From an uncultured Marvinbryantia sp. (GTDB lineage: Bacteria > Bacillota > Clostridia > Lachnospirales > Lachnospiraceae), in NCBI GenBank assembly GCA_934394985.1, contig CAKRRF010000053.1, forward strand, positions 1 through 13,890: DNA of 13,890 nt, read 5' to 3'. Numbering within the stretch: position 1 is the first letter of the stretch; every line of letters begins with the position of its first letter. The notes beneath the pieces were generated by a model. It searched no databases, was not told where the DNA came from, and saw only the letters and a program-made list of their open reading frames with translations. Of the stretch, positions 3,983-13,805 are shown piece after piece. Position numbers and translations under genes: made by a program.

Positions 3983-3990
3983 GAAAATAG

Positions 3991-4060
3991 TTGTACGACT
4001 GGCGGATGAGCAGGGAAAACCTGCAGGGAGTACAACATGAATGAGCCGACCGCCTGGGTG
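3991..4060 (+). promoter_or_regulatory. ZTP riboswitch (pfl motif) aptamer
   Basis: The RNA senses ZTP/ZMP (AICAR nucleotides), which build up when 10-formyl-THF is short. Visible elements are P1, TTGTAC (3991-3996) with GTACAA (4030-4035); P2, GCAGG (4010-4014) with CCTGC (4020-4024) and a GAAAA loop; the conserved GACTGGCGG segment (3997-4005); and the 3' domain GCCGACCGCCTGGG (4045-4058). GGCGG (4001-4005) can form the family pseudoknot with CCGCC (4050-4054). The next gene encodes an AICAR-pathway enzyme, exactly the expected target. Confidence 0.92.
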
Positions 4061-4094
4061 ACGTCTTTTAATCAGTGCGTCCCCAGGTTTTTTT
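4053..4094 (+). terminator. Intrinsic terminator, expression platform of the ZTP riboswitch
   Basis: CCTGGG (4053-4058) pairs with CCCAGG (4082-4087), and GACG (4060-4063) with CGTC (4078-4081), with one bulged T. Seven T's follow (4088-4094). The 5' arm shares bases 4053-4054 with the aptamer pseudoknot and more with its 3' domain. Ligand binding should therefore block the terminator and turn the purine genes on. Confidence 0.88.
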
Positions 4095-4176: not shown

Positions 4177-4893
4177 ATGAAAATGTTATCACTGGAACAG
4201 GAGCTGAAGGGAAATGCTTATCCGGGAAGAGGAATCGTGATTGGTAAATCTGCAGATGGAAAATATGCAGTGACCGCTTATTTCATCATGGGACGCAGCG
4301 AGAACAGCCGCAACCGTGTATTTGTTACAGAAGGAGAAGGCATACGCACACAAGCTTATGATCCTTCTAAGCTGACAGATCCGAGCCTGATTATTTATGC
4401 GCCGGTACGTGTACTTGGAAAAGATACAATTGTAACAAACGGAGATCAGACAGATACGGTATATGAGGGCGTAGCAAAAGGACTGACTTTTGAACAGTCT
4501 TTGAGAAGCCGTGAGTTTGAGCCGGATGCGCCAAACTATACACCTCGTATTTCTGGTATGATGACAATCGAAAATGGCAGATTTGATTATCAGATGTCCA
4601 TTTTAAAGAGCAATAACGGCAATCCTGCAGCCTGCAACCGTTATACCTTCTCATATGAGAAGCCGGTAGCCGGCGAGGGACACTTTATTCATACTTACCT
4701 TGGCGATGGCAATCCATTGCCAAGCTTTGAAGGTGAACCGAAGCTGGTAGCTATTCAGGATAATATTGAGATCTTTACAGAGCTGTTATGGAACAGCCTG
4801 AATGCAGATAATAAAGTATCCCTGTTTGTAAGATATATCAATATCGAGACAGGAGAATACGAGACAAAGATCATAAACAAACATGAACAATAA
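4177..4893 (+). CDS. purO: IMP cyclohydrolase, PurO-type
   Basis: Closes the second ring of the purine skeleton, converting FAICAR to IMP, the last step of de novo purine synthesis. The 238-residue protein resembles the archaeal-type IMP cyclohydrolase (PurO) family, not the N-terminal domain of bifunctional PurH. Family-like segments are NAYPGRGI (13-20), AYFIMGRSENSRNR (34-47), a central ITIYAP-like strand (LIIYAPVRVLG) and YTPRISGM. It is cytoplasmic, with no signal or TM segment. An AAAGGAGA site (4163-4170) fixes the start. It is first in the ZTP-riboswitch operon with the AICAR formyltransferase gene 399 nt downstream; together they replace PurH. The family call rests on motif and context; catalytic residues were not checked. 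Confidence 0.88.
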   Translation: MKMLSLEQELKGNAYPGRGIVIGKSADGKYAVTAYFIMGRSENSRNRVFVTEGEGIRTQAYDPSKLTDPSLIIYAPVRVLGKDTIVTNGDQTDTVYEGVAKGLTFEQSLRSREFEPDAPNYTPRISGMMTIENGRFDYQMSILKSNNGNPAACNRYTFSYEKPVAGEGHFIHTYLGDGNPLPSFEGEPKLVAIQDNIEIFTELLWNSLNADNKVSLFVRYINIETGEYETKIINKHEQ

Positions 4894-4897
4894 TGAA

Positions 4898-5256
4898 TAC
4901 CCCGGAAAGCAAGAAGCTTGTGAATTCCGTGGTAAGATAGAGGAAAACCGGAATGAAAATACCCCGGAATCTAAAGAAAATCTTGTTTTCGTAGTACTGT
5001 AGTGGCGAAAGAGGCATGCGAATACCCCGGAATTTAAGAAGCTTGTGAATTCCGTGGTAAGATAGAGGAAAACCGGAATGAAAATACCCCGGAATCTAAA
5101 GAAAATCTTGTTTTCGTGGCAGTATAGCGGCAAAAGAGGCGTTACTTACCCCGAGATTTTAAGAATTGCTTCTTTTCGTGGTACTGTAGTGGCGAAAGAG
5201 GCATGCGAATACCCCGGAAAGCAAGAAGCTTGTGAATTCCGTGGTAAGATACAGGA
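4898..5256 (+). repeat. Six-unit tandem array of 62-63-bp hairpin repeats
   Basis: Fills the 399-nt gap between the two purine genes. Units start at 4898, 4960, 5023, 5085, 5147 and 5210. Each opens with a 37-nt hairpin: TACC, a conserved C.T mismatch, CGGAA-like arm, short apical AAG/CTT-type stem, TTCCG-like arm, GGTA. The hairpin is followed by a linker of type A (AGATAGAGGAAAACCGG...) or type B (CTGTAGTGGCGAAAGAGGC...), in order A-B-A-B-B-A. The 37-nt hairpins of units 1 and 6 are identical. Arm changes keep pairing (CGGAA/TTCCG, CGGAA/TTTCG, CGAGA/TTTCG). The array begins 5 nt after the upstream stop. The period is not a multiple of three and reading frames on both strands are broken, so it is not coding. 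Confidence 0.93.
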
Positions 5257-5292
5257 AACGAATTATAATGATAATTAGGAGAGAATGAACTC

Positions 5293-6468
5293 ATGAAAGA
5301 ATTACAGTTGAAATATGGATGTAACCCAAATCAGAAACCTTCCAGAATTTATATGAAAGATGGCGAACTGCCAATTACCGTATTATCCGGAAGACCTGGA
5401 TATATTAATTTCCTGGATGCTTTTAATGGCTGGCAGCTTGTAAAAGAATTAAAAGAAGCCACTGGACTTCCGGCTGCTACTTCTTTTAAGCATGTTTCAC
5501 CGGCAGGAGCAGCAATCGGACTTCCACTGACTGATACACTGGCAAAGATCTACTGGGTAGATGACTGTGGTGAACTTTCCCCGTTGGCATGTGCTTATGC
5601 AAGAGCCAGAGGTGCAGACAGAATGTCTTCCTTTGGAGATTTCATTGCTCTTTCTGATACTTGTGATAAAGATACTGCTATGCTGATCAAGAGAGAAGTA
5701 TCTGACGGTGTGATTGCACCAGCTTACACAGAAGAAGCACTGGAAATCCTCAAATTAAAGAAAAACGGCAATTATAATGTCATCCAGATTGATCCGGAAT
5801 ATCGTCCGGCGCCAATCGAACATAAAGAAGTATTTGGCATTACTTTTGAGCAGGGACGTCAGGAACTGCCGATTAATGATGAACTGTTATCCAATATTGT
5901 AACAGAAAATAAAGAACTTTCACCGGAAGCTATCCGTGATATGAAAATTGCCCTGATTACTCTGAAATATACGCAGTCCAATTCTGTCTGCTTTGTAAAA
6001 GACGGACAGGCTATTGGTATCGGTGCAGGACAGCAGTCCCGTGTACATTGTACTCGTCTGGCAGGTCAGAAAGCGGATAACTGGCTGCTTCGTCAGTGCC
6101 CGAAGGTAATGAATCTGCCGTTTAAAGAAGGCATCCGTCGTGCAGACAGAGATAATGCGATTGATGTTTATATTGGTGAAGAGTATATGGATGTTCTGGC
6201 AGACGGAGCATGGCAGAAAGTATTCTCCGAGAAGCCAGAAGTCTTCACAAGAGAAGAGAAACGCGCATGGCTGGATCAGATGGATGGTGTTACACTCGGA
6301 TCTGATGCATTCTTCCCATTCAGTGACAATATTGAACGTGCCCACAAGAGCGGCGTGAAATATATTGCACAGCCAGGTGGATCTGTCAGAGATGATCTGG
6401 TGATCGAATGCTGCAACAAATACCAGATGGTTATGGCATTTACAGGAATTCGTCTGTTCCATCACTAA
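5293..6468 (+). CDS. purH: Stand-alone AICAR formyltransferase (PurH C-terminal-type)
   Basis: Transfers a formyl group from 10-formyl-THF to AICAR (ZMP), giving FAICAR, the substrate of the cyclohydrolase encoded upstream. The 391 residues cover only the AICARFT domain; the IMP cyclohydrolase domain of normal PurH is absent. Landmarks are KYGCNPNQKPS (7-17; compare RYGENPHQ in PurH), the catalytic Lys-His pair K66-H67 in SFKHVSPAG, ARARGADRMSSFGDF, SDGVIAPAY, and QSNSVCFVKDGQAIGIGAGQQSR near the middle. AGGAGAG about 10 nt upstream fixes the start. It lies in the same operon as the riboswitch and ends at a strong terminator (6514-6541). The sensed metabolite of the riboswitch is this enzyme's substrate. 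Confidence 0.95.
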   Translation: MKELQLKYGCNPNQKPSRIYMKDGELPITVLSGRPGYINFLDAFNGWQLVKELKEATGLPAATSFKHVSPAGAAIGLPLTDTLAKIYWVDDCGELSPLACAYARARGADRMSSFGDFIALSDTCDKDTAMLIKREVSDGVIAPAYTEEALEILKLKKNGNYNVIQIDPEYRPAPIEHKEVFGITFEQGRQELPINDELLSNIVTENKELSPEAIRDMKIALITLKYTQSNSVCFVKDGQAIGIGAGQQSRVHCTRLAGQKADNWLLRQCPKVMNLPFKEGIRRADRDNAIDVYIGEEYMDVLADGAWQKVFSEKPEVFTREEKRAWLDQMDGVTLGSDAFFPFSDNIERAHKSGVKYIAQPGGSVRDDLVIECCNKYQMVMAFTGIRLFHH

Positions 6469-13760: not shown

Positions 13761-13805
13761 ATTTTACCACGGGAAAAATAAGACAAGCCTGTTTCGGGGT
13801 AAAAT
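13761..13805 (-). repeat. Single dispersed copy of the 37-nt hairpin element, inverted
   Basis: Read on the minus strand, bases 13801-13765 start TACCCCGAAA and end CCCGTGGTA, 37 nt in all. This is the same length and the same conserved ends, including the C.T mismatch after TACC, as the six units at 4898-5246. The outer stem is longer here: ATTTTACC (13761-13768) pairs with GGTAAAAT (13798-13805). It lies 39 nt after the flavodoxin gene. No T-tract follows, so it is not a typical terminator. Confidence 0.75.

Follow-up and report, generated by a model that had tools for sequence, protein, structure and literature searches.

In this work, we have analysed an array of palindromes that lies between two purine genes of an uncultured Marvinbryantia sp., within a 13,890-nt stretch of DNA that we call the window and analysed at its full length. 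As the first-pass annotation of this DNA had supposed, the genes that flank the array code for consecutive enzymes, an IMP cyclohydrolase and an AICAR formyltransferase. The features of the window that matter here are the following:

3985..4066, plus strand: ZMP/ZTP riboswitch, upstream of the purO-purH operon (Rfam RF01750, 52.1 bits against a gathering score of 39)
4177..4893, plus strand: upstream gene, IMP cyclohydrolase of the PurO type (NCBIfam NF003167/TIGR01922, E 7e-13 and 3e-11, both under the curated cut-offs)
4898..4934, plus strand: palindrome 1, half-sites TACCCCGGAA / TACCACGGAA, middle of 15 nt
4935..4959, plus strand: linker of 25 nt
4960..4996, plus strand: palindrome 2, fold no better than shuffles
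4997..5022, plus strand: linker of 26 nt
5023..5059, plus strand: palindrome 3
5060..5084, plus strand: linker of 25 nt
5085..5121, plus strand: palindrome 4, fold no better than shuffles
5122..5146, plus strand: linker of 25 nt
5147..5183, plus strand: palindrome 5
5184..5209, plus strand: linker of 26 nt
5210..5246, plus strand: palindrome 6, same sequence as palindrome 1
5293..6468, plus strand: downstream gene, AICAR formyltransferase, purH (NCBIfam NF005492, 729 bits against a cut-off of 415)
13765..13801, minus strand: seventh palindrome, solitary and flipped with respect to the array, 43 nt past the stop of a flavodoxin gene

The array (4898-5246) consists of six imperfect palindromes of 37 nt separated by linkers of 25 or 26 nt, and the start-to-start distances of 62, 63, 62, 62 and 63 bp bear out the earlier description of six 62-63-bp units between the two genes. 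It begins directly past purO, as had been reported, 4 nt after the stop codon (TAA 4891-4893), and it ends 46 nt ahead of the purH start. A coding role, already discounted on the grounds of the period, is not supported by a spacing of 62/63. No promoter-like site was found in 4898-5258, and two terminator-like sites lie inside the array, on the minus strand, against 1.1 ± 1.3 expected (1.5 kb scanned). The ends of the units had been described as fixed (TACC...GGTA); this holds for the 5' end, which reads TACCCCG in all six units, but the 3' end CGTGGTA is present in only four, unit 2 having CGTAGTA and unit 4 CGTGGCA. The mismatch described as conserved, a C opposite a T at positions 5/33, is present in 6/6 units. 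The left half-site is TACCCCGGAA, with TACCCCGAGA in unit 5, and the right half-site, read on the opposite strand, is TACCACGGAA or a relative of it, the 15-nt middle lying between the two. The window units are not independent: the pairs 1-2 and 3-4 arose by duplication (period of 125 bp, reference copy of 121 nt, 93% identity), and one and the same palindrome is shared by units 1 and 6.

The count of seven copies in the window was correct, the seventh being the solitary one on the other strand beside the flavodoxin gene (Pfam Flavodoxin_4, E 2e-17). The strict pattern TACCNCG-N23-CGNGGTA occurs five times in the window and was absent from 300 first-order Markov simulations; on the plus strand of the window (13.9 kb) all seven occurrences of TACCNCG and all five of CGNGGTA fall in palindromes.

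The length of the gap between purO and purH is unusual. It is 399 nt in the window, against a median of 25 nt in 76 related loci (those of the best 80 that have both genes), the best purO identity being 82% among the matches listed for these 80 loci. In the closest sequenced genus, whose purH is 92-94% identical to that of the window, the gap is 14-96 nt in 8/8 genomes, including the genome designated here G436. The order lexA-purO-purH is found in seven of these eight genomes, a contig end breaking the eighth locus, and in 7/8 the contig of the purO-purH locus also bears capA. A CapA homologue of 98% identity is listed with ENA as its source, and searches for CapA in 397 genomes of the family, 392 of the order and 8 + 3 of the genus gave no match above 65% identity; the window species was not found in them. 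A long gap of 437 nt was found in another lineage (locus L003, JAUNPU010000001.1), where it holds an array of unrelated palindromes of ~42 nt, TTTTGGACAATT..AATTGTCCAAAA (4840-5107), spaced about 81.5, 52 and 92.5 bp as measured by hand. Given this unrelated array in the same gap, the purO-purH gap may be a tolerant insertion site. We propose that the window array would be an insertion into the junction without a purine-specific role, and that the coupling between purO and purH would at most be loosened by it.

Are the palindromes found elsewhere? A covariance model built from the seven window copies, the search suggested in the first-pass annotation, was run on the eight genomes of the closest genus. 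Further copies were indeed found, with 26 match rows in G436 and zero to two weak rows in each of the other seven genomes, and a weight matrix applied to the loci from this search detected 42 copies in 11 of 15 loci and none in one shuffled control. Over 20 fetched stretches of G436, which were picked for having matches, there are 69 palindromes, at least one of them in 19/20 stretches. The G436 matches are a lower bound, with 150 of 1,894 first-look candidates scored; the weight matrix was trained on its own hits, and the low-score single copies at loci L192-L195 are less sure.

Ten complete elements of five palindromes were found in G436. Their start-to-start spacing is 51-63-63-51 in eight, 51-63-62-51 in one and 51-62-62-51 in one, and one of the ten carries an extra sixth palindrome at 73 bp; the other elements are one with four palindromes and three with two at 51 bp. 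The linkers follow the order 14-26-26-14 nt, the outer ones being of 14 nt in 20/20 cases and the inner ones of 26 nt in 17/20 and of 25 nt in 3/20. Mean pairwise identity within these elements is 0.41-0.48 in the linkers, 0.85 and 0.78 in the arms and 0.61 in the middle; the linkers are conserved in length and drift in sequence. The half-site consensus, of about 10-11 bp, is TACCNCGGAA in the window species and TACANCGGAA in G436, with half-site centres about 26 bp apart. The fourth palindrome from the 5' end of the G436 element (e.g. L179 2714-2750) has a degenerate right arm, (A/T)TTT(A/G)(G/T)TG, in nine of the ten elements, the one at L183 being regular, as if one half-site were maintained in a weak form. 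At L179, L186 and L191 a similar long terminator-like hairpin, GAGCTGYYGCAAAATAGATG..CATCTATGGAG.. followed by a T-run, was read by eye directly upstream of the element; this hairpin may belong to the element or form a dispersed family of its own.

With genes called as simple ORFs, 34 arrays could be placed as follows: the flanking genes are tandem in 16, convergent in 8 and divergent in 1, and 9 arrays are unclassed. The divergent case hinges on an ORF that has no Pfam match. In the array genomes the arrays are nearly absent from divergent intergenic regions (1 of 25 classed arrays). Among 25 ORFs flanking arrays in G436, 21 have a Pfam match, and the functions are diverse cellular ones (pyruvate kinase, QueT, RtcB, HIT and OMP decarboxylase, among others). 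The ORFs overlapped by G436 arrays are of 101-144 aa only. In other genomes, longer ORFs of 461-652 aa on the minus strand, with no Pfam match, run antisense to or through arrays at L210 (3-1385), L211 (10-1449) and L225 (117-2072); they may be genes, or frames left open by chance where the genome is richer in GC.

The search was extended to 225 Lachnospiraceae genomes with a model of the palindrome built from 49 copies, of 37 nt and ungapped, which partly imposes the length of the palindromes and leaves their spacing free. At E <= 1e-3, 15 genomes were matched, G436 and 14 of the 224 others, counts that are lower bounds since 30 candidates per genome were scored. Nine of the fourteen (G253, G247, G136, G137, G231, G089, G091, G138 and G172) have arrays, that is, at least two copies close together in loci that were read; the single matches in G082, G241, G061, G065 and G033 may be chance or terminators. 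The arms are genome-specific (ACATCG, ACAGCG, GCAACG, ACGGCG), and when each array genome is represented once, with the window and G436 counted in, the left arms have CG at positions 6-7 in 11/11 and CGG in 10/11. The palindrome family is dispersed, mostly intergenic, across several Lachnospiraceae genomes, and of the roles that had been listed for the array, that of a REP-like dispersed family is borne out by the 69 copies in G436 and by the matches in 14/224 other genomes. The annotation knew of no named family with these features, and none was found in Rfam or in the literature searched, which covered few subscription journals or preprints.

The exact window pattern TACCCCG-N23-CGTGGTA was found in 0/50 and 1/397 Lachnospiraceae genomes; the single match (G426) is at chance level, with a different inner sequence, and the backward control matched 4/397. 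Two weak matches of 28 and 52 nt in a blastn search of the array against 387 genomes were judged to be chance. The array had no match in phage or plasmid records, and the one match given by one of three scans of viral contigs, which falls in apparent coding sequence by eye, was also judged to be chance. AT-rich palindromes of ~42 nt, TTACATATA..ATATATGTAA, lie in tandem at 75 bp in Eubacteriaceae bacterium B88_13_EV_BP (L080 6440-6640).

Our results suggest that the palindromes tend to be helically phased. The centre-to-centre distances cluster at 50.5-53, 61.5-64, 72-73, 83-84 and 94.5-95 bp, about five to nine helical turns, with a few exceptions. Tandem duplication gives the spacings of any one array a common ancestry, and the spacing of 62 may be inherited between genomes; the 113 distances, worked out by hand, were reduced to 17 genome-by-class means, which give R = 0.886 at 10.5 bp, a value reached by none of 20,000 uniform draws. 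When the 62-63 class is left out, the eight values that remain give R = 0.79 (P = 0.0037), and when the model-free arrays of L003 and L080 are added R drops to 0.83 (0/20,000). The best-fit period is 10.86-10.9 bp and not 10.5. Spacings of 59.5 (G253), about 81.5 and 92.5 (L003) and 75 (L080) fit poorly, and two 8-turn spacings in G089 lean partly on weak matches (16-20 bits). Seven spacings in which a copy between was missed were left out of the test, 104.5 and 105 (L210), 123 (L212), 124 (L222 and L226), 187.5 (L230) and 114 (L185); they amount to roughly twice or three times a class value, or to 51+63. We take this spacing to be phased with the helix, and the palindromes accordingly to be sites on double-stranded DNA; phasing by whole turns suggests predicted protein-binding sites rather than RNA hairpins. 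The putative protein-binding array, which had been another of the roles listed, gains from this phasing and from the fixed linker lengths.

The first-pass annotation had held that the arm bases vary in ways that keep pairing, and that this points to selection on RNA or DNA structure. As far as RNA is concerned, the array would be transcribed between purO and purH, and its hairpins would act on the mRNA by stabilising or processing its two parts or by exposing them unequally. The position inside an operon, 4 nt past a stop codon, agrees with such a role, as does the folding of units 1, 3 and 6 (about -13 kcal/mol, z about -4) and of the 403-nt stretch as RNA (z -2.2; as DNA, z -3.6). Unit 5 is weak (z -2.0), and units 2 and 4 fold like shuffles (z -0.6 and -0.9), which counts against RNA hairpins. 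The dyad is real, since over 48 distinct copies 76% of cells pair in register and only 32-46% in slid registers, and the pairing is kept between genomes, a further point for the hairpins. What is largely missing is covariation within a genome. In the 48 distinct copies 76.3% of cells are paired against 76.1% after shuffling, and four of five measures are at shuffle level, the covariation score alone standing above them (matched by 15/500 shuffles); in the ten five-palindrome elements of G436, within each element position, there are 366 Watson-Crick pairs against 366.3 expected. The mismatches on the array strand, 48 G-T and 73 A-C, have no G-T excess; on the opposite strand, read as RNA, the 73 A-C would become G-U pairs against 48, a mild wobble excess that would favour hairpins transcribed from that strand. 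At L179, L186 and L191 the element follows a terminator-like hairpin, which would imply little transcription of it from that gene, and helical phasing has no obvious RNA meaning. In Rfam the ZTP riboswitch is the sole match at gathering level in the window, the matches to the array being sub-threshold, and nothing reached the threshold in five G436 loci. With no clear within-genome covariation, no G-T excess and two of six units folding like shuffles, the claims of compensation in the arms and of selection on RNA structure find no support, and the RNA reading seems improbable to us; the original observation stands except for the covariation claim. Of the two outcomes that the annotation had named as refuting it, a lack of covariation is largely what we see within a genome, and a lack of further copies is not.

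Between genomes the arms do co-vary, with 98/110 pairs against 82.8 expected (0/5,000 shuffles), in a test that is biased upward by the choice of best matches with a model that scores pairing. This is explained equally by a DNA half-site consensus. In fact, arm covariation that is lacking within a genome and present between genomes is expected for half-sites read by one putative protein per species, and a putative DNA-binding protein would be expected to leave just this trace, a single half-site consensus per genome to which each arm conforms on its own. As for the constant C.T mismatch of the window, we take it rather for a base that the half-site specifies weakly: among positions 1-10, this one most often lacks a partner (27/48 distinct copies). 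The likely mechanism is one of DNA and not of RNA.

How do the arrays compare with known systems? Like the REP, BIME and REPIN sequences of enterobacteria and pseudomonads, they are dispersed intergenic palindromes, often clustered and of species-specific sequence, and the extragenic dispersal in many copies that characterises REPs and BIMEs is found in the G436 stretches (69 copies). BIMEs sit at the ends of transcription units. Unlike REPs and BIMEs, the elements described here have a long middle of ~15 nt, mostly direct order and helical spacing. REPs carry a GTAG/GTGG foot and have a cognate RAYT; their basal stem, of 7-20 pairs, closes on a short loop, and in BIMEs they are paired in inverted orientation (PMC3686654, PMC6006769). 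In E. coli, REPs or BIMEs are reported to be bound by IHF, gyrase and DNA polymerase I (PMC3686654). Here, a search 0-2 nt beyond the palindrome, on either strand, turned up the foot in 8/69 G436 copies and in 0/7 window copies; the stem is not paired throughout its base and has no short loop, the arms being of about 10-11 bp around a ~15-nt middle, with position 5/33 unpaired in all six window units and in 27/48 distinct copies; and the Y1 (RAYT) transposase family PF01797 gave no match in the draft genome of G436, the relative tested, and is present in four of the eight genus genomes (G433, G435, G165 and G439, all palindrome-poor) and in 5/14 controls. The array fails REP/BIME membership, although its action may be BIME-like by analogy. 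In G433, a genome without palindrome arrays, five Y1-transposase matches of equal score lie on contig C1, which looks like a recent IS200-type expansion.

BOX, RUP, EFAR and bcr, mosaic repeats of Firmicutes, are by description similarly short, non-coding, multi-part and intergenic. With CRISPR arrays they share repeats of 37 nt and intervals of 25-26 nt, but the intervals repeat within the array and the copies are dispersed in the genome; the Rfam CRISPR-DR match to the array is sub-threshold (15.9 against 36 bits), and no cas gene was named among the 10 window proteins scanned. Iteron or centromere arrays are helix-phased protein-binding repeats at one locus of a replicon, and the arrays described here would likewise be helix-phased but occupy many loci per genome.

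Could the elements owe their existence to mobility? The five-palindrome unit might be a selfish or neutral miniature element, non-autonomous, whose spacing is set by the needs of the enzyme that spreads it and which has no function for the host. The copies are scattered among unrelated genes and patchy, being present in numbers in one of the eight genomes of the genus; G436 contigs end inside repeats (C57:9, C70:9, C115:60 and C4:68), and the G436 elements form subfamilies with linkers in common. Against this, no transposase or recombinase family was found among the 25 flanking G436 ORFs scanned (four without a Pfam match), nor a Y1 transposase in G436. Such mobility would be compatible with protein binding, because a transposase could be the binder, and we regard it as rather unlikely. 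The more specific proposal of REP/BIME elements mobilised by a RAYT would account for a dispersed, mostly intergenic, palindromic and genome-specific family, and BIMEs are likewise found at transcription-unit ends. The lack of PF01797 in G436 and its presence in palindrome-poor members of the genus, the scarcity of the foot, the long middle and the mostly direct order largely refute this proposal, and its probability is very low. Lower still is that of a palindrome that arose by chance and was duplicated locally in tandem, with neither family nor function, which we find hardly credible: the recent duplication of units 1-2/3-4 and the rarity of the exact pattern in other genomes would fit it, but a seventh copy lies elsewhere in the window, and the same 37-nt architecture with similar linker lengths recurs in other genomes and in G436, whose copies refute it.

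The reading that we prefer, to which we give about half of our confidence on the strength of the sequences compared here, is that of helically phased, BIME-like arrays on DNA that would be bound by a putative protein. The element would be a dispersed, mostly intergenic Lachnospiraceae DNA element made of tandem palindromes, each of two inverted half-sites of ~10-11 bp, with neighbouring palindromes close to whole helical turns apart, mostly six and also five, seven, eight or nine. A putative DNA-binding protein, as a dimer or as two molecules per palindrome, would fill the sites on a single helical face and would assemble cooperatively into a nucleoprotein patch. By analogy with the BIMEs of E. 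coli, this patch could affect DNA topology or mark a boundary where transcription units end. Against this arrangement, the two half-sites of one palindrome, 26 bp apart, face opposite sides of the helix.

We hypothesize, more tentatively and with clearly less confidence than in the reading above, that the chromosomes of Lachnospiraceae may be spanned by nucleoprotein arrays of a class not yet described, in which tandem palindromes on one helix face would be read by a fast-evolving putative protein, the half-site specificity would shift from genome to genome (ACCnCG, ACAnCG, ACATCG, GCAACG, ACGGCG) with the sites in step, and the arrays would form boundaries at transcription-unit ends. If true, a major family of gut Firmicutes would have a family comparable to REPs and BIMEs, with helical phasing built in and apparently without a RAYT, and this would give a handle on chromosome organisation and on the protein that reads the sites. 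The symmetric change of the half-sites between genomes would make this reader findable, as a protein whose specificity tracks the arms.

A second palindrome family, TTTACGGAAG..CTTCCGTAAA, was found model-free in G436 (L190 5640-5930, contig C16), where its three copies lie 95 and 94.5 bp from one to the next, close to nine turns of the helix.
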